A DNA stretch of 46,930 nt from a bacterium (GTDB lineage Bacteria; Patescibacteriota; Minisyncoccia; JAUYLV01): the NCBI GenBank assembly GCA_030649025.1, contig JAUSGO010000034.1:1-46930 (forward strand), in the 5' to 3' direction. The position numbers were made by a program, and so were the translations under genes. Position 1 is the stretch's first letter, and each line of letters starts with the position of its first letter. This document shows, piece by piece, positions 28,140 through 39,167 of this stretch. The notes under the pieces were generated by a model. That model ran no database searches. It saw only the letters and a list, made by a program, of their open reading frames with translations, and was not told the DNA's origin.

Positions 28140-28165
28140 ACATCCTTGTCCCAAGACAAGGATGT
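28140..28165 (+). promoter_or_regulatory. Hairpin that contains the start codon of the VirB2-like gene
   Basis: ACATCCTTGTC (28140-28150), CCAA, GACAAGGATGT (28155-28165). The ATG at 28162-28164 is inside the right arm, so the mRNA start could be masked. The ends ACATCCTT..AAGGATGT resemble the palindromes at 1812 and 2155 but the spacing differs. Confidence 0.5.
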
Positions 28166-28452
28166 TGCTTGCCGGCTTTTTTGTGTCCGACGAAACACTC
28201 ATTCAAAACATCGCCGGTCTTCAGATACAGGATATCTATAATATCTTTGATGCTCTCTCCCAGTGGGCGCTGGTGTTTGGCGTCGTCGGAGCGGTCATCT
28301 CGCTCATGTTTTCCGCGCACATGCTTTTGCGCTCCGCAGGAAATGAGGAGCGCGTGAAAAAGGGCAAGCAGGCACTCACGTGGACGGTAATTGCGCTTGC
28401 GCTTATTGTGATCTCGCGCGGTATTATTATTCTTATTGGGAATTTTTTTTAG
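28162..28452 (+). CDS. Small two-helix membrane protein, VirB2/TrbC pilin-like
   Basis: The 96-residue protein has an N-terminal hydrophobic part, then 'FDALSQWALVFGVVGAVISLMFSAHMLLRSAG' and 'ALTWTVIALALIVISRGIIILIGNFF': two membrane helices joined by a short charged loop (NEERVKKGK). This is the layout of VirB2/TrbC-like pilins and of the Mbov_0395-type proteins common in candidate phyla genomes, which often stand near type IV secretion or pilus genes; none are nearby here. The start is uncertain: ATG 28162 lies in a hairpin and GTG 28183 is also possible. Confidence 0.6.
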   Translation: MLLAGFFVSDETLIQNIAGLQIQDIYNIFDALSQWALVFGVVGAVISLMFSAHMLLRSAGNEERVKKGKQALTWTVIALALIVISRGIIILIGNFF

Positions 28453-28521: not shown

Positions 28522-28550
28522 TTGAATATAAAACATACTCTTGCTACATT
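28522..28550 (+). promoter_or_regulatory. Promoter of the first kinase gene of the nucleotide island
   Basis: TTGAAT (28522-28527), 17 bases, extended -10 TGC-TACATT (28545-28550). The leader is about 40 bases and carries AAGGAGG before ATG 28597. Confidence 0.7.
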
Positions 28551-28596
28551 GAGCTCGAGTTCATTTAAAAAATAAAATTACGAAGGAGGTTTTGCC

Positions 28597-29340
28597 ATGG
28601 AAAGTGGAAAAAAGCAAGTTTTTACCGAATTCGAGCGCAGGGCCCAGTTGTTGCGGAGCTACTTAAAGCCAGACCTTCGTCACAACATGGAAATCATTCC
28701 CAGCCCATTTTTTATTGAGATCGATGGGGGGACTTCCAGCGGGAAAAGTACGGTCATACGGGAACTTGATAAGTTCTTCAAGCGCGAAGGTTTCCGCGTA
28801 TTGGCACCTCAAGAGGGACCCGCGGTGATACGCCATATTCCGCGGGATACGCCGGAGTACAATCTCCGAACGGGGATTTACTCACTGCAGATGTTCATAG
28901 ATTTTTCCTGGGGGCATCTGTATGATCTGGTCATTTTCGAGCGCGGGGTTTTTGATCCTTTGCGGTGGATGGAATACTGGAAAGCCAAAGGCTTGCTTAC
29001 CGAGGAAGAAAAGTCCATCATACAGAATTTTTTCCTACTCAATGCATTTACGAAGAAGGTGGATGCGGCGTTCTTTCTTGTGTGCGACCCGCAGGTCGCT
29101 TTTGAGCGGGAGACTCGTTTTGAGCTTTCGAGCAAAGCAGGAGAGAGCACGAATCCTGCAGCCATCAAGGTCGCCAGTGAGCAGTATCGTGTTCTCTATG
29201 AACGTCTATCTCCCGCATATCCGCAACTCGTGCTTGTCGATACCACAAAGCTTACCGAGATCGAGATGACGCAGCATATCACCGGAATTGCGTTGAATTT
29301 TTTGGAAGAACGCGCATTGAATTCGGAAAAAAGGGGGTGA
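28597..29340 (+). CDS. P-loop nucleoside/nucleotide kinase-like protein
   Basis: The Walker A motif GGTSSGKST (about residues 44-52) sits in 'FFIEIDGGTSSGKSTVIREL', the opening used by thymidylate and deoxynucleoside kinases. 'VLAPQEGPA', 'YDLVIFERGVFDPLRWMEYW' (DRS/ERG-type catalytic region), 'VDAAFFLVCDPQVAFERE' (LID-side Arg) and 'AAIKVASEQYRVLYERL' follow the same order. It is 247 residues. AAGGAGG precedes the ATG. It resembles the N-terminal half of the kinase-CYTH protein at 31645, so the two are probably paralogues. Substrate is unknown; a nucleoside or nucleotide is likely from context. Confidence 0.75.
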   Translation: MESGKKQVFTEFERRAQLLRSYLKPDLRHNMEIIPSPFFIEIDGGTSSGKSTVIRELDKFFKREGFRVLAPQEGPAVIRHIPRDTPEYNLRTGIYSLQMFIDFSWGHLYDLVIFERGVFDPLRWMEYWKAKGLLTEEEKSIIQNFFLLNAFTKKVDAAFFLVCDPQVAFERETRFELSSKAGESTNPAAIKVASEQYRVLYERLSPAYPQLVLVDTTKLTEIEMTQHITGIALNFLEERALNSEKRG

Positions 29341-29392
29341 GGCGTTCCGGTAGAGCGCCTCACGGGGGGTTTCGTAAATGTCTTTACGAAAC
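29338..29392 (+). terminator. Two hairpins after the first kinase gene
   Basis: TGAGGCG / CGCCTCA (29338-29344, 29356-29362) begins with the stop codon itself; GTTTCGTAAA TGTC TTTACGAAAC follows (29369-29392). Neither has a T tract, so termination is uncertain; they may separate or stabilise mRNA segments. Confidence 0.45.
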
Positions 29393-29483
29393 GCGGGCAA
29401 CTGCCTTGTTTCCGAAGAATAAAAAGTCACCCGGGAAACTGAAATATTTCGATAAAATGAAAGTCAGCTAGGAGGTTAAGGTC

Positions 29484-30071
29484 ATGCACTTTCAGCAACA
29501 ATGCATCGGATTTACGGGACAGCTTGCGGCCGGAAAAGGAGAGGCGCTGCGGATCTTATGCGGCGAGTTCGGCTTCAAATCCTTCTCGCTCTCCGATCGC
29601 GTTCGGGAGGTGGCAAGGGCGCGGGGGCTTTGCGAGGTGACCCGCGAGATGCTCCAGGATGTGGGAGACAGCCTGCGCCGGGATTTTGGCGGAGAGATTC
29701 TTGCGAAACTTACTGCCGGTATGGCGTTCACCGAAAATCTTCATCGTGTTGCCATCGACAGCATCCGGAATCCTGCAGAAGTCGCGTTTCTTCGCGCTCA
29801 TCCAAATTTTCGGCTTGTTGCCGTTGTTGCCCCGCAAGAAGAGCGCGGCAGGCGGCTTATCGCTCGTGCCCGCCCCAGCGACCCCAAAACCTATGAGGAA
29901 TTTTTGGAGCGCGACGCAAGGGATTTGGGCGTTGGACAGGGGGAGCTTGGCCAGCAGGTAGGCAAATGTATCGAGATGGCCAATTTCATCCTATTCAATT
30001 CCGGAACTCTCGAGCAATTTGAAAAAAACATACACAATATGGCAGATCTCATACTCTCCAACCAGCTGTAA
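29484..30071 (+). CDS. P-loop kinase-like protein, dephospho-CoA kinase / dNMP kinase type
   Basis: A 195-residue P-loop protein. Walker A reads GQLAAGKGEA in 'CIGFTGQLAAGKGEALRIL', with Gly-Glu after GK where GK-S/T is standard. 'FSLSDRVREVARARG', 'REMLQDVGDSLRRDFGG', 'VAIDSIRNPAEVAFLR' and 'FRLVAVVAPQEERGRRLIARAR' follow the dephospho-CoA kinase and phage deoxynucleotide-monophosphate-kinase order. GGAGG stands nine bases before the ATG. A terminator follows. CoA synthesis is less likely than nucleotide phosphorylation given the neighbours, but both are inference. Confidence 0.7.
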   Translation: MHFQQQCIGFTGQLAAGKGEALRILCGEFGFKSFSLSDRVREVARARGLCEVTREMLQDVGDSLRRDFGGEILAKLTAGMAFTENLHRVAIDSIRNPAEVAFLRAHPNFRLVAVVAPQEERGRRLIARARPSDPKTYEEFLERDARDLGVGQGELGQQVGKCIEMANFILFNSGTLEQFEKNIHNMADLILSNQL

Positions 30072-30079
30072 ATATACGA

Positions 30080-30106
30080 GGCGCCTTGTCCAGGGGCGCT
30101 TTTTCT
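30080..30106 (+). terminator. Terminator after the second kinase-like gene
   Basis: Stem GGCGCC / GGGCGC type (30081-30085 with 30095-30099) followed by TTTTTCTTT. Confidence 0.75.
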
Positions 30107-30134
30107 TTGCATAAATAGACTTTTCTGCTAGGCT
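30107..30134 (+). promoter_or_regulatory. Promoter of the HAD nucleotidase-like gene
   Basis: TTGCAT (30107-30112), 16 bases, TGC-TAGGCT (30129-30134). The ATG at 30142 is seven bases after the -10 hexamer, so the mRNA is probably leaderless. Confidence 0.55.
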
Positions 30135-30141
30135 AAGAGGA

Positions 30142-30777
30142 ATGTCGCTTTCTCTTCCAGATGTTGTAAGGAGAAAAAAACAGCCGTTCCGAATCGGAAC
30201 GGATCTTGATGGCGTAGTCATTGATCATACCGAGAATTTTCTTAAAGTATGCAGCGAATTCGGCTGCCGGCTTGAGCCGTGGCAGACGAATTCCAATATT
30301 CTTCACGAATACGTTCCTGAAGAATTTAAAGAACGCATTAAAAAGGAGGTATATGACGTACGTCGGATGAAATCGCGACTTATGCCGGATTTTTTAGATC
30401 TTGATTTCTTGTTTTTCGAAAATCTGATAGTGGCGAGCGTACAGAAAGTGGCAGCAGCGGAAGAAAAAGTATGGCAATGGCTCGGGGAGCAGAAGATTCT
30501 GGACCGTCTTCCAAAATCCAGTATCTCCATTTTCCGGACCCGCCAGGCCAAAATAGAATATTTGAACCAGGTAAAGCCGGATTTTTTTATAGACGACGGT
30601 CTTGACGTGCTTGAGTTTTTGGATACGTCCATAGTACCGATCCTTTTTGATCCGCTCGGCGTTCATGAACGCATTCCCGTACCTAACGATGTACATGTTG
30701 TCAGGGGCTGGCATGAAATACAGCAACTTTTCGGCGCATTTACAAAGGCGAAAGAAGACGCGCCTGTTATGCATTGA
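30142..30777 (+). CDS. HAD-superfamily 5'(3')-nucleotidase-like protein
   Basis: HAD motif I is DLDGVV in 'FRIGTDLDGVVIDHTENFL' (nucleophile Asp and general-acid Asp). Motif II is in 'SSISIFRTRQAK', and the motif IV acid pair is in 'KPDFFIDDGLDVLEF'. The alpha-helical cap lies between, about residues 30-120. This is the arrangement of 5'(3')-deoxyribonucleotidases and related phosphatases, which remove phosphate from nucleotides. It is 211 residues. It lies between kinase-type genes, where it could balance nucleotide pools. Confidence 0.78.
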   Translation: MSLSLPDVVRRKKQPFRIGTDLDGVVIDHTENFLKVCSEFGCRLEPWQTNSNILHEYVPEEFKERIKKEVYDVRRMKSRLMPDFLDLDFLFFENLIVASVQKVAAAEEKVWQWLGEQKILDRLPKSSISIFRTRQAKIEYLNQVKPDFFIDDGLDVLEFLDTSIVPILFDPLGVHERIPVPNDVHVVRGWHEIQQLFGAFTKAKEDAPVMH

Positions 30778-30854
30778 CGGCGTAGGCATCCCGGGTAAAA
30801 TAGTTTCATCAAAATCGAATCTTGTTTTTTGACATCTAGAGAGGAGATGGACCA

Positions 30855-31514
30855 ATGAATATTACCCTGATGGGCACTATGCCCATAGAAGAAGCATTCG
30901 AACGTTTAAGGAACGCGCCGCTGGAGGCCGCAGGAACGGAGAAAATATTTATATACCGAGATGCCACTATGCGTCTTTGCGATTTTTCTCCCGACGAACT
31001 CAATCCCGCGTCGCTCTATGTGTTAAAGAAAAACCTCGAGACGCAGCGGCAGATACGAGCGCATTTTTTGCAAGAGCATGGCATTGACACCTTACAGCTT
31101 TCCCAAGTGCTGCATTTGCGGGTTGCAGGAAAGGACGGGGAACGGCTTGTAGGTATGGCCCCGCCATTCGTGGAGATACAGGAGGAGCGGGTAAAGATCG
31201 TTGCGGGCGAAGGCGAACGTTCTTCTCCGGAAAATCTTGTTCTGCAGATACCAATCTTGCAAGACGGTATCCATAGGGCACATCTTGCAAGAGAGGCGGG
31301 GGTTTTGTTGCGTTGCGTGGTCATTCAAAGCCGCGTGACAGGCTATCCTCTTTATGCCTACCCGAATCATTGGTCGGAAGTAGTATTGTGCGACGAGACG
31401 CCGAAAGTAAAGAAATACTATCGTCGGGAGGATCCCTACACGTTCATGCGCCCGTATACGATACTCCAGCAAATTTCCAATCCGGAAGCGTTCAAGCCCG
31501 AGTGGGGACGATAA
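30855..31514 (+). CDS. DGxHR-motif protein (ParB/sulfiredoxin-like fold suspected)
   Basis: I do not recognise a named family. The central 'LVLQIPILQDGIHRAHLAREAGVLLRCVVI' has the DG-x-HR motif seen in ParB-like and sulfiredoxin-like ATP-binding proteins (DGxHRxxAxxxxG). The part after it, 'YPLYAYPNHWSEVVLCDETP', 'KKYYRREDPYTFMRPYTIL', is aromatic-rich. The first 100 residues are mixed with no motif. It is 219 residues. GAGGAG is placed eight bases before the ATG. It is read with the nucleotide-kinase genes on both sides. A small-molecule or nucleotide-handling role is inference. Confidence 0.55.
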   Translation: MNITLMGTMPIEEAFERLRNAPLEAAGTEKIFIYRDATMRLCDFSPDELNPASLYVLKKNLETQRQIRAHFLQEHGIDTLQLSQVLHLRVAGKDGERLVGMAPPFVEIQEERVKIVAGEGERSSPENLVLQIPILQDGIHRAHLAREAGVLLRCVVIQSRVTGYPLYAYPNHWSEVVLCDETPKVKKYYRREDPYTFMRPYTILQQISNPEAFKPEWGR

Positions 31515-31540
31515 GAGCTGTATCAGCACAGCTCTTTTTT
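31514..31540 (+). terminator. Terminator after the DGxHR gene
   Basis: AGAGCTGT ATCAGC ACAGCTCT with five to six T directly after; its first base is the last base of the stop codon. Confidence 0.85.
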
Positions 31541-31566
31541 CATTTGCCAAAGAGTCCGCAGTACGG

Positions 31567-31595
31567 TTGACAAGAGGCAATGTCCCGCATACCAT
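31567..31595 (+). promoter_or_regulatory. Promoter of the kinase-CYTH gene
   Basis: Consensus TTGACA (31567-31572), 17 bases, TACCAT (31590-31595). Predicted start near 31602 leaves a leader of about 40 bases to ATG 31645, which has GAGGTG seven bases upstream. Confidence 0.65.
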
Positions 31596-31644
31596 AGGGG
31601 CAACAATGTTCTTTAATTTCACATATAAAAGCGAGGTGCAAGAC

Positions 31645-33006
31645 ATGCAAGCTATCCATAAGCTTTCTCAAGTGGATTTTGAGGAACGGGCCAGAGTCCT
31701 GGGGCCGAGGATCTTTGAGACCATTGACATTCCGGCAAGGCGAAGCGAGCCGGCGCCGAAGACCGTTATCGTGGAGGTCACTTCCGTTGTTCCAAAGTCC
31801 GGCAAAACTACGCAGACCCAGCATCTAAGCTCCTCGCTGCGCGCGGTGATGGGGAGTGGCATGCGCGTGGTGGTAACTCCCGAGGGAGCGGAAGACCGGG
31901 CCATTCGCGCCATGAAAAAACAGGAGACGGATTTGGTGCTTGCGCGGTATTTGACGTACGTCATGCAAAATCTCCTCGATCTTTCTCGAAGCCGAGAATT
32001 TCATGTGGCGATACAGGACCGGAGCATCATCGACCATCTTATTTGGTCGGAATTTTATGCCAGAGCCGGAGAGATCACCCGCGAGCATCGGGACCGCGTG
32101 TGGGACTATGTGCTTTCCGGTGCATGGGTGCAGGCCATTGACGCGATCTTCTATCTTTATACGGATATTGATACGGCATTGGCGCGCGAGAAGAAAGGCG
32201 TTTCCATCGACCGGGCGGGTTCCATCATGAATCAGGATTCACTCTCTCGGTTTTGCGAAGCGGCAGAATCAACTCTGGAAGAGGTGTCGCGGCGCATGCC
32301 GGAATTGCCGATATTCCGGCTCGATACGGGAACCACATCCGAAGAAGAAACAAATGCGCAGATGACGCTGGCACTGCTTGAGACGTTGAACGGGCGTCTG
32401 GGCATAAACCTACGGCATACGGTTCCTTATTCCCTTTCCCTTATGCGTAAAGAAGCGGAGATCAACGGCAAACTTCAAGTGCAGATAAAGCTTAAGGGCC
32501 ACCCTTGGCCGGAGGGTGTAGCCGAGCGGGGTTGGGTGCTCAAGGAAGAAAGCGAACAGGTAGATACGTACTGCGTATTTTTGGATGGAGTCCATCCCAC
32601 GATCAAGCCCAGCGAGATCATCCGCATCCGGAAGGTCGGAAGCCAATATTCCTTCGCCTACAAAGGCGTTGGAGTGGAGAACATCGTAACCCGCCGTCCG
32701 CATCTCAATATCCCTATCGATGAGCGCCAAGCGCGGGATCTGATGAATCTTTACACCAGGCTTGCGACCATCACCAAAAAACCGCGTACCATGTATGAAC
32801 GCGAGATCGACCCGTCTATCAGCGCGTATGGAAACATGTTCTTGTGCGTTGATACGGTGGAAGAACTTGGCAAGTTTACGGAACTATCCATGTACGCCAA
32901 TGAATACGAGGAAGCGCGCCAGACGCTTCTTGAAGAAGCTGCTCGCCTTGGATTCGGACTGACGGATGTCGCGGAAGGAAATTATCTCAAAATGGCCGTT
33001 GGCTAA
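31645..33006 (+). CDS. P-loop kinase fused to a CYTH (triphosphate tunnel) domain
   Basis: The N-terminal half (about 1-260) is a kinase like that at 28597: P-loop PKSGKTTQ (about residues 51-58), 'VVVTPEGAED', 'HVAIQDRSIIDHLIWSEFY' and 'AIFYLYTDIDTALARE'. The C-terminal half (about 270-453) has the CYTH order: 'GKLQVQIKLKG' (ExExK-like start, here Q-I-K), 'EESEQVDTYCVF', 'EIIRIRKVGSQYSFAYKG', 'TMYEREIDPS', 'MFLCVDTVEELGKFTELSMY' and 'NYLKM'. CYTH proteins act on triphosphates (CyaB adenylate cyclase, thiamine triphosphatase, polyphosphatase). Plant TTM1/2 also join a P-loop kinase to CYTH. ATG 31645 is preferred; ATG 31606 is possible. The product and substrate are unknown. Confidence 0.72.
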   Translation: MQAIHKLSQVDFEERARVLGPRIFETIDIPARRSEPAPKTVIVEVTSVVPKSGKTTQTQHLSSSLRAVMGSGMRVVVTPEGAEDRAIRAMKKQETDLVLARYLTYVMQNLLDLSRSREFHVAIQDRSIIDHLIWSEFYARAGEITREHRDRVWDYVLSGAWVQAIDAIFYLYTDIDTALAREKKGVSIDRAGSIMNQDSLSRFCEAAESTLEEVSRRMPELPIFRLDTGTTSEEETNAQMTLALLETLNGRLGINLRHTVPYSLSLMRKEAEINGKLQVQIKLKGHPWPEGVAERGWVLKEESEQVDTYCVFLDGVHPTIKPSEIIRIRKVGSQYSFAYKGVGVENIVTRRPHLNIPIDERQARDLMNLYTRLATITKKPRTMYEREIDPSISAYGNMFLCVDTVEELGKFTELSMYANEYEEARQTLLEEAARLGFGLTDVAEGNYLKMAVG

Positions 33007-33095: not shown

Positions 33096-33498
33096 GAGAG
33101 AGAACCCCGACCTTAACGCGTCAGGCACGTAAGCCGAATTCTGTAATCCCGCCGTGGCGGGAATGAGGATCATCTATCTGTCCGGCTTCTTGTGAAACCG
33201 GATCAAGCGGCACCCCGACCAATGCGTAGCACTGATCGGTACGACCTTGCACCCGGGTAAGGATTTAGCAGGCTGTCTTGTCTCCAAAACAGCGCACGTT
33301 TCACCCTTTGCGTTTCCGCAAAGACTCGTCTCTGTTCGCACCTCTAGCTACCGCGGCAAGCCGCAATAGACCGGCGGGCGTTACCCGCTACCTGTTTACC
33401 CGCCTAAGTTTTGCTTTCGCAAAATTTTGGCGGGTGAGTGTTCGGACTTTCCTCCAACTTGCACGAGCGTGCAAATCAGCGATCCTCTCGGTCTCTCA
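33096..33498 (-). ncRNA. rnpB: RNase P RNA, bacterial type A-like
   Basis: RNase P RNA is the catalytic RNA that trims tRNA 5' leaders. Read on the minus strand, 'GGAGGAAAGTCCGAACAC' (from about 33454 downward) is the universal CR-I region, 'ACAGAATTCGGCTTACG' (about 33148-33132) is the conserved 3' region, and the internal 'GTGCAAGGTCGTACC' and 'TAGCGGGTAACGCC' pieces fit the middle. P1 can form between GAGAGACC at the 5' end and GGTTCTCTC at the 3' end, which sets the ends near 33498 and 33096. This non-coding gene explains most of 33007-33572. Confidence 0.92.
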
Positions 33499-33504
33499 TG
33501 TATT

Positions 33505-36903: not shown

Positions 36904-36927
36904 TGTTTGACAAAGAAAGGACAACCT

Positions 36928-37527
36928 ATGGACTCTTCTCGAGGAACATTCATCGTATTCCACGGCATCAACAACCTGGGGAAATCCACCCAGGCTACTC
37001 TGCTCGTGGAGCGTATTTTGCGCGAAGGCGGACGGGCAATGTACCTGAAGTATCCGTGCTACGATCTTGAGCCTTCGGGTCCGCTTTTAAACGAATATTT
37101 ACGGAAAAAGAACCCCTACGGCCTTACGCCACGCGAGGCGCAAATGCTGTTTGCCCTCAACCGCACGCAGTTTGAGCCGATTTTGTCTCAAGAATATCTT
37201 GCTCGAGGCATTACGGTTGTTGCGGAAGATTATACCTGCACGGGCATTGCCTGGGGGGTTGGCGCGGGCGTTGACCGGGCTTTCCTTACCCGCGTGAACT
37301 GCCATCTGCTTCGCGAAGACGTCTCGTTTCTTTTTGACGGCAAGCGATTTGCCGACGCAAAAGAACAGGGCCATGCACATGAAATGGATGATGATCTTAC
37401 CGAGCGCGTGCGGCTTGTGCACACCGAACTTGCCAAAGAATTCGGATGGCATGTGGTAGACGCCAACGAGTCTCGCGAAGCCATCCATGAGCAGATCTGG
37501 AATATCACGCAGCCACTGCTGTCTTAA
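36928..37527 (+). CDS. tmk: Thymidylate kinase
   Basis: It phosphorylates dTMP to dTDP. ATG 36928 is chosen because AAAGGA stands eight bases upstream; an in-frame TTG at 36907 is less likely. The P-loop reads HGINNLGKSTQ (usual GxDGAGKSTQ, here without the Asp). 'YLKYPCYDLEPSGPLLNEYL' corresponds to the R-x-P-GGT region and 'VVAEDYTCTGIAWG' to the DRYxxSxxAYQ region, both diverged. It is 199 residues. The double ThyX gene begins 11 bases after its stop, so dTMP synthesis and phosphorylation are coupled. Confidence 0.8.
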   Translation: MDSSRGTFIVFHGINNLGKSTQATLLVERILREGGRAMYLKYPCYDLEPSGPLLNEYLRKKNPYGLTPREAQMLFALNRTQFEPILSQEYLARGITVVAEDYTCTGIAWGVGAGVDRAFLTRVNCHLLREDVSFLFDGKRFADAKEQGHAHEMDDDLTERVRLVHTELAKEFGWHVVDANESREAIHEQIWNITQPLLS

Positions 37528-37538
37528 GGAGATTTATC

Positions 37539-39167
37539 ATGTTCACTCCGGAAGAAAAAACATTACTTGCGCAATACGTTACCTCAACGGAGAATGACGT
37601 TTTTGTCATCAAAAACCTCCAGGGCATTGTGGGAGCGGTGTTCGCCCGTTACTCGCGCGCCAAAGGGACGCTCCGAGAAACATTGCTGAAAGAATTCATA
37701 AAAGAAGGGGTTATTGACCCGAAACATGCAGAAGAGCTCATTGCGCGCGTTCTCATTGCCTATGGAGACGATTCGGTCGGAGAGCTGGAGGGAGCGCATG
37801 CCTCCATCGAGCGCCATTCGATGCTTGTCACAAAAGAATACGAGGACAGGCGCATCAACATATCTCCGATAGAGCAATCGACCAGATACGTCTTTTATGA
37901 CCAAAAGGACGAAGAGGGCAAGTGGCTCTACTGGCGGGGGCCGGAGCTTACCGAATCTTCTTTCGGCGCGGAGTATCTTGCAACAATGGATGCTATCTTC
38001 GAAACGTACGCAAGGCTTGTCGAGCCGATGAAGATTTTTTTTCAGAAACTCAAACCTCTTGAAGAGGCCGAGTATGATATCAACGGGGACGGCAAGAAAG
38101 AGAAGCTATCCGAACTTACCGATGAAAAAGAAAGAAAAGCTTTTGCGGTAACGTATAACACGGATGTTCGCACGAAAGCCTGCGATACCCTGCGGCATCT
38201 TCTGCCGCTCTCAACGCTTACCAACGTCGGACTTTTCGGGAACGGACGTGCTTTCCAGCATCTTTTGACCCATCTTTTTTCCACGGATCTTCCGGAGACG
38301 CACGAAGTCGCGCGCCAGCTTTTTGAAGCGGCTTCCGAGGTAATTCCGGCCTATGTGAAGCGCGCAAGCCGCAATGAATACGTTGTTTCGGTGCGTCGTG
38401 AGATGTTCGCGCTTGCCAGAGAACTTGGTATAGACTACGACAAGGGCAATATTATGCACGAGGAGGTAAAGCTTCTCCCTATGTCGTCTGACCCCGCGAG
38501 CCACGACATTCAAACTGTCGCGGCAATGCTTTTCCCGTATGCGGCACTCTCATTCGGAGAGCTCATTGAGAAAGTATCGGCAATGTCTGACGAAGCAAGA
38601 TTCGGCATTATTCATACCTACATCGGTGCGCGAAAGAGCCGACGAGACCGCCCAGGGAGAGCTTTGGAGCACGGCTATCCGTATACGTTCGATATGCTTA
38701 CCGATTGGGGAGTTTACAAGGACCTCATGCGTCATCGCATGAACACCCAGCAACGACAGCTTTTTACCACGCGACTTGGGTTTTTTATTGCCCCAGAGAT
38801 CAAAGAAGCCGGATTCTTGGCGGATATTCTCGAGTGCGTCCAGAAAGCCGGCGATCTATTCGAACGTATCCATAAAGAAAACCCTTTGCTTGCGCAGTAT
38901 GCCGTGCTCCATGGCAATTTTGTCCGCTGGACCATGGGGCTTAATGACCGGGCGCTCATGCATCTTGCAGAACTACGCTCAACGCCGCAGGGCCATCCGA
39001 ACTACCGTAAAATAGCGCAAGAAATGCACAAGCTTGTCGCCGCCCGCTCTTCTTGGCGCGGAGAGGCAATGCAGTTTGTTGATCACAGCAACTATTACTG
39101 GTCTCGTGCTGATTCGGAAGCGCGCCAGCGTGTCAGAGAGCGAAAGTTAGAGGATGAGAAAATATGA
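37539..39167 (+). CDS. thyX: Flavin-dependent thymidylate synthase, tandem two-domain form
   Basis: ThyX makes dTMP from dUMP with FAD and methylenetetrahydrofolate. Standard ThyX is about 220-250 residues; this is 542 and contains two diverged copies. In the first half the signature region is 'YEDRRINISPIEQSTRYV' (about residues 101-118), equal to RHRxxSxNExSxRY. In the second it is 'LMRHRMNTQQRQLFTTRLG' (about 396-414), which keeps RHR but changes the SxNExSxRY part. The two halves may form one pseudo-dimer with split active sites. AAGGAG lies seven bases before the ATG. It is coupled to tmk and ended by a strong terminator. Confidence 0.87.
   Translation: MFTPEEKTLLAQYVTSTENDVFVIKNLQGIVGAVFARYSRAKGTLRETLLKEFIKEGVIDPKHAEELIARVLIAYGDDSVGELEGAHASIERHSMLVTKEYEDRRINISPIEQSTRYVFYDQKDEEGKWLYWRGPELTESSFGAEYLATMDAIFETYARLVEPMKIFFQKLKPLEEAEYDINGDGKKEKLSELTDEKERKAFAVTYNTDVRTKACDTLRHLLPLSTLTNVGLFGNGRAFQHLLTHLFSTDLPETHEVARQLFEAASEVIPAYVKRASRNEYVVSVRREMFALARELGIDYDKGNIMHEEVKLLPMSSDPASHDIQTVAAMLFPYAALSFGELIEKVSAMSDEARFGIIHTYIGARKSRRDRPGRALEHGYPYTFDMLTDWGVYKDLMRHRMNTQQRQLFTTRLGFFIAPEIKEAGFLADILECVQKAGDLFERIHKENPLLAQYAVLHGNFVRWTMGLNDRALMHLAELRSTPQGHPNYRKIAQEMHKLVAARSSWRGEAMQFVDHSNYYWSRADSEARQRVRERKLEDEKI

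Follow-up and report, generated by a model that had tools for sequence, protein, structure and literature searches.

Introduction

Five neighbouring genes on a contig of a Patescibacteria genome raise the question of whether they form a functional unit acting on DNA precursors or merely stand side by side. The contig (JAUSGO010000034.1 of assembly GCA_030649025.1, class Minisyncoccia; C34 in our numbering) was analysed over its whole length of 46,930 nucleotides, in the following termed the window, and belongs to a genome of 1.23 Mb in 40 contigs. Our analysis leads us to favour, with moderate confidence, a Patescibacteria-specific module for deoxynucleotide salvage and pool balancing that is centred on pyrimidine and thymidylate precursors. 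The five genes are all encoded on the plus strand and occupy positions 28597-33006. A previous sequence-only reading had proposed two kinase paralogues, a second type of kinase, a nucleotidase and a DGxHR protein, and each of these is present:

28597-29340, plus strand: K1, P-loop kinase of the thymidylate kinase / deoxynucleoside kinase fold, 247 amino acids (aa), assigned from an AlphaFold2 model, PDB matches and an ortholog alignment
29484-30071, plus strand: K2, adenylate-kinase-like / UPF0200-type P-loop nucleoside monophosphate kinase, 195 aa, PF13207 above cut-off and PDB entries 3lw7/3h0k at 8e-15
30142-30777, plus strand: N, HAD-fold 5'(3')-deoxynucleotidase-like protein of the NT5C type, assigned from Pfam NT5C in orthologues and from HAD motifs
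30855-31514, plus strand: D, DGxHR protein with a probable ParB/sulfiredoxin fold, short subfamily without helix-turn-helix, PF24392 (ParB-CE) at 59.5 bits
31645-33006, plus strand: K3, K1-related kinase with a C-terminal CYTH/triphosphate-tunnel domain, about 453 aa, assigned from tblastn to K1 and from CYTH profiles

Recurrence and linkage of the genes

The gene neighbourhoods were surveyed by profile searches, family by family, in 285 genomes of the class to which the window genome belongs. K1 was present in 19 genomes from 13 families, a count that leaves out K3-type matches, and N was present in 35. N was found in 17 of the 19 K1 genomes, in 11 families (hypergeometric p = 7e-16), and both K1 genomes without N are 86-87% complete. 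K1 and N share a contig in 15 of these 17 genomes and are then adjoining or one to two genes apart; in the other two (G085 and G182), N, D and K1 meet at contig ends. Of 22 K1-N pairs, 19 are divergent, typically with less than 90 bp (usually about 60 bp) or D between the two genes, and there is a correlation between K1 distances and N distances (Mantel r = 0.59, p = 6e-4). PF24392 by itself recovered D in only 1 out of 116 genomes of the phylum and in none of 14 controls. Since this model is too narrow for most D proteins, own profiles were used, which detected D in 18 of the 285 genomes. N co-occurs in 12 of these 18 (p = 2e-8), and in 11 of the 12 the two genes lie close together. The p-values take genomes as independent and thus serve for orientation only. 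More weight lies on the spread over 11 families in combination with changed gene orders.

Several arrangements were observed. The layout N-D-K1 occurs at loci L023, L064, L083 and L087, and N-D pairs without K1 at L100, L103, L105 and L106. In the distant genome G072 (locus L016) N, K1, D and K3 stand together in this order; K3 adjoins D only there and in the window. The flanking genes mostly differ from family to family, hence the module is not one inherited chromosome block, and circulation as a loosely arranged cassette is the best reading of these data. The survey, which had been named as a check of the sequence-only reading, thus supports a shared context, with K1 and N linked in 17 out of 19 genomes and 11 families; the homologues are not single and scattered.

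The kinases K1 and K2

The AlphaFold2 model of K1 has a pLDDT of 89.8. Its best PDB matches were thymidylate kinase (TMK; Z 16.9, 2.7 A, 180 aligned residues), AbmG (Z 16.8) and human dCK (Z 15.6), and the full domain, residues 35-239, is covered by the folds of TMK and the deoxynucleoside kinases (dNK). K1 orthologues share 29-53% identity in a 25-sequence alignment. G and K of the P-loop are invariant. A single-sequence scan of genome contigs with K1 gave no match. An alignment-based scan of genome contigs resulted in 24 K1 loci; every taxon-named one is from Patescibacteria and the remainder are from metagenome-assembled genomes. The named relatives are of the Parcubacteria type, i.e. Yanofskybacteria, Giovannonibacteria, Terrybacteria, Azambacteria, Sungbacteria and others, and the window genome therefore probably belongs with them. 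In genome G049, K1 (L025:3828-4535) is interrupted by stop codons (TAG, TAA), reflecting either a decaying gene or an assembly error.

K2 is a P-loop kinase of a type different from K1. The window-type K2 subfamily exceeded 300 bits in only 3 of the 285 genomes, each time inside the module, and the next best match reached 125 bits. The three sites are the window, L067, where K2 adjoins K1, and L114, where it takes the K1 position adjoining N.

The putative nucleotidase N and the DGxHR protein D

Against Pfam NT5C, the window copy of N scored 15.3 bits, which is below the cut-off of 24.8, and all three orthologues scanned scored above it (25.1-29.3 bits). HAD motifs I (DxDG), III (K) and IV (DD) are invariant across 14 N sequences. 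An SRR motif is found in all 13 aligned orthologues and is absent from the window copy; in the orthologues it stands where characterised NT5C members have their usual motif II.

The DGxHR box of D reads DGIHR in the window. P..E and DG.HR are invariant in the family, with D137, G138 and R141 invariant in 18 sequences. The D model has a pLDDT of 72, and its top fold matches were nearly all Srx, SerK, SbnI or ParB proteins (Z 4-6.3).

The kinase-CYTH fusion K3

The most likely start of K3 is at 31645, where a GAGG box precedes it, and not at 31567. The protein is related to K1 (tblastn E 1.9e-14) and carries a C-terminal CYTH/TTM domain, which had been missed in the sequence-only reading. In a profile comparison this C-terminus matched SaTTM at 1.2e-9, and CYTH was above cut-off in L017. 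The motifs DxY, RxR and YKG are kept, while QVQIK replaces ExExK and ELS replaces ExE; relatives have ExQxK or a degenerate sequence at the ExExK position. The CYTH domain has probably lost canonical triphosphatase chemistry. Loci matching the K3 profile only in the CYTH half (L069-L075) were set aside as other CYTH proteins without a K1-like kinase. Among these, L070:10368-12158, L071:9670-11466 and L072-L075 encode proteins of roughly 400-600 aa whose C-terminal CYTH domain is likewise of the ExQxK type and whose N-terminal part differs from the K1-like kinase.

Thymidylate genes and further partners

Downstream of the five genes, two contextual partners were identified in the window:

36907-37527, plus strand: thymidylate kinase gene (tmk), PF02223 at 7.6e-18
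37539-39167, plus strand: long ThyX-type thymidylate synthase with two Thy1 stretches, PF02511 at 1.8e-31

The proximity to tmk (from 36907) and thyX (from 37539) noticed in the sequence alone was confirmed by Pfam, and the link recurs in other genomes. At L067 the order is K2-K1, a Fic-motif protein, an HD protein, D, TMK and ThyX, and at L023 N-D-K1 is followed by an HD protein, a Fic-motif protein and TMK. A dCTP deaminase (DCD) adjoins K1-N at L018 (DCD-K1-N). SHMT-TMK-D-HAD-DCD operons were found at L108, L109 and L111, and the same operon without TMK at L110, in four genomes of one family. Based on L108-L111, L067, L018, L023 and the window neighbours, the recurring theme is thymidylate and dCTP/dUTP metabolism. 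The operon context of D at L108-L111 could reveal its function. ThyX comprises 542 aa in the window and 579 aa at L067:13424-15163, each more than twice the usual length and with two Thy1-matching stretches.

The Fic-motif (IHPWxDGCGR) family is encoded at L023:10425-11162, L067:10319-11041 and L101:2047-2781, all in module genomes. It was detected strongly in these three and weakly in one other of the 285 genomes. The protein scored 13.9 bits against Pfam Fic (cut-off 24) and a PDB profile search with it gave no match, thus the Fic label rests on the motif. The HD protein paired with it is nearest to MESH1/small alarmone hydrolases. Directly upstream of K1, the window encodes a small type IV secretion pilin-like protein (28162-28452; PF18895, 29.4 bits).

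Gene boundaries and leaders

Each gene had been ascribed its own promoter or hairpin boundary and a leader with a strong ribosome-binding site, as in cassettes. Terminator-like hairpins were located at two sites:

30078-30102, plus strand: terminator-like hairpin 3' of K2
31513-31536, plus strand: terminator-like hairpin 3' of D

A further hairpin 3' of K3, at about 33031, was recognised by eye. There is no hairpin between N and D in the window, and promoter-like sites were not above shuffled sequences (3 found, 5.1 expected). Shine-Dalgarno sequences precede K1 and K2 (AGGAGG), D (GAGGAG) and K3 (GAGG), and that of N is weak. Hence, the cassette-like boundaries hold in part: hairpins close K2, D and K3 and leaders are strong for K1, K2 and D, whereas a hairpin between N and D, promoter-like sites above expectation and a strong leader for N are missing.

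Phage origin and defence

Transfer from phage and a tie to phage defence had also been considered in the sequence-only reading. A tblastn search of K1, K2, K3 and D against 50,697 phage records gave no match. Scans of 2.9 million viral contigs detected no relatives of K1, D or K3; N had a single match, which was weak and partial. On the empty phage-record searches (K1, K2, K3, D) and viral-contig scans (K1, D, K3), a phage origin was rejected. Recent acquisition of foreign DNA was rejected by base composition, the GC content of the island being 0.505 compared to 0.492 in the window (standard deviation 0.013).

K2 was the sole PADLOC match among the five genes, its partner being the kinase-like part of the anti-phage dCTP deaminase. 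It matches only residues 105-213 of the 437-position NF041025 model with its 195 aa and has no deaminase domain, and a role in phage defence is not supported. The surroundings in the window read as housekeeping, with pheT and gyrB (by sequence reading) and RNase P RNA. The lone K2 match, the negative phage and viral searches and these surroundings make defence a minority reading. As such, it is kept alive by the Fic-motif and HD partners and by ParB-fold proteins being used as NTP switches (PMC12704722, PMC10853773). Thus, from the sequence-only reading the nucleotide-metabolism island with a shared context was retained, and phage defence and phage origin were not. The RNase P RNA (class A, window 33114-33499, minus strand) is complete, and its 86.6 bits are below the Rfam gathering score of 100, so that it is missed by default scans.

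Discussion

From homology, the fold of K1, linkage and pathway context we infer substrates, direction of flux, regulation and the role of D as follows. K1 would phosphorylate a salvaged deoxynucleoside or deoxynucleoside monophosphate, and K2 would either phosphorylate a second substrate or replace K1. N would take off the 5'-phosphate when the pool overshoots and so limit pools. Since K1 and N usually diverge from one short intergenic region, the pair is probably co-regulated from this shared region. D may bind a nucleoside triphosphate (NTP) or nucleotide and serve near the dUMP-dTMP step, either as a sensor or as an accessory enzyme, and K3 may be a further kinase that is regulated by, or coupled to, its phosphate-binding CYTH domain. 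The products would pass to TMK and ThyX, whose genes lie 4 kb downstream. Bacteria of the Candidate Phyla Radiation often cannot make nucleotides (PMC7304191), and host-dependent bacteria such as these could plausibly take up nucleosides from their hosts as parasites. As a tentative extension, the module may serve dNTP homeostasis in Patescibacteria, with D as a ParB-fold NTP sensor controlling the antagonistic K1 and N, thymidylate supply matched to host delivery, and HD, Fic-motif and kinase-CYTH proteins added in some lineages.

Several observations weigh against salvage and pool balancing. K1 matches TMK and AbmG equally well, and sharing a fold does not reveal the substrate. The window copy of N deviates from its family at motif II. 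Kinase and nucleotidase could cancel each other in a futile cycle, or their substrate could be a non-canonical nucleotide. Three modules include a Fic-motif protein and a MESH1-like HD hydrolase, which points to signalling and not to simple salvage. Genome G001, from the same family as the window genome, is without K1, N and D, and the module is therefore dispensable.

The signalling partners would fit a nucleotide-signalling or conflict system, in which D senses an NTP, the three kinases and N produce or remove a nucleotide that is modified or has a regulatory role, and the HD and Fic-motif proteins are effectors or safeguards. The near confinement of the Fic-motif family to three module genomes, the alarmone-hydrolase affinity of the HD protein and the resemblance of K2 to the kinase part of the anti-phage dCTP deaminase argue for it. 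Moreover, ATP/GTP binding is known for a DndB-like protein of the ParB fold, and a role as nucleotide-degrading antiviral effectors has been proposed for ParB-fold proteins (PMC12704722, PMC10853773). However, most modules consist of just K1 and N or K1, D and N, D also occurs in plain SHMT-TMK-DCD operons, and K1, N, D and K3 are without a PADLOC match in surroundings that read as housekeeping, which makes such a system rather unlikely. We give still less credit to the synthesis of an unusual deoxynucleotide, with kinases, phosphatase and D converting a non-canonical nucleoside to a triphosphate destined for DNA. K1 is as near to AbmG, a cytidine kinase of a nucleoside-antibiotic pathway, as to TMK, several kinases of differing type are grouped together and the ParB-fold protein DndB is linked to DNA modification, but no base-modifying enzyme recurs in the module neighbourhoods.

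A P-loop kinase, a HAD phosphatase and a CYTH/TTM fold, which includes RNA triphosphatases, are on paper also the right combination for polynucleotide end-healing, with K1 and K3 as putative 5'-OH kinases and N as phosphatase in analogy to T4 Pnkp. We rejected this very improbable alternative because K1 fits TMK/dNK across the full domain, no ligase recurs and the linked genes act on free dNTPs. Least credible is a chance grouping of unrelated housekeeping genes. Terminators do split the window genes and gene order varies, but linkage in 11 families is far beyond chance, and the survey refutes such a grouping for K1, N and D; adjacency of K3 was seen only in the window and G072.

Each fold in the salvage and pool-balancing module that we favour is known, whereas the literature searched gave no description of the gene combination, its restriction to Patescibacteria or the presence of D in thymidylate operons. 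Patescibacteria represent a large share of bacterial diversity, are often without nucleotide synthesis and live off other cells. This previously unnamed conserved gene set offers concrete candidates for the means by which they obtain DNA precursors, and it places a probable ParB-fold protein in nucleotide metabolism, outside chromosome segregation.

Comparison with known systems

K1 resembles the TMK/dNK superfamily (PF02223, PF01712) in its Walker A motif, the conserved R of the DR/ER motif and Z values of 15-17. In contrast, the window K1 stays below the Pfam cut-offs and identity is 11-20%, an N-terminal helix and the conserved motifs PQEGAEVIRH and W..YW are peculiar to K1, and K1 was found in Patescibacteria only. 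N shares DxDG, K and DD with the NT5C-type 5'(3')-deoxyribonucleotidases (PF06941), and the three orthologues scanned exceed the NT5C cut-off, with the window copy below it. K2 matches the kinase-like domain of the anti-phage dCTP deaminase (NF041025, PADLOC dCTPase) but lacks the deaminase domain. The DGxHR box and the fold matches to Srx, SerK, SbnI and ParB connect D tentatively with the ParB/sulfiredoxin/SerK fold. As differences, it has no helix-turn-helix or dimerisation domain and is placed in nucleotide-metabolism operons and not next to parA or dnd genes.

Plant TTM1 and TTM2 are fusions of a P-loop kinase and a CYTH domain. K3 has the same kinase-CYTH architecture as AtTTM1/TTM2, and TTM1 (7z66) was among its profile matches. 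The plant proteins are reported to have lost ExExK and ExE and to have kept DxY and RxR (PMC8233210, from which the definition of ExExK is also taken), and the same losses and retentions are seen in the CYTH domain of K3. In contrast to the plant proteins, K3 has a TMK/dNK-like kinase part that is similar to K1, is bacterial and is located within this module. K3 thus parallels plant TTM1/TTM2 both in architecture and in the motifs lost.

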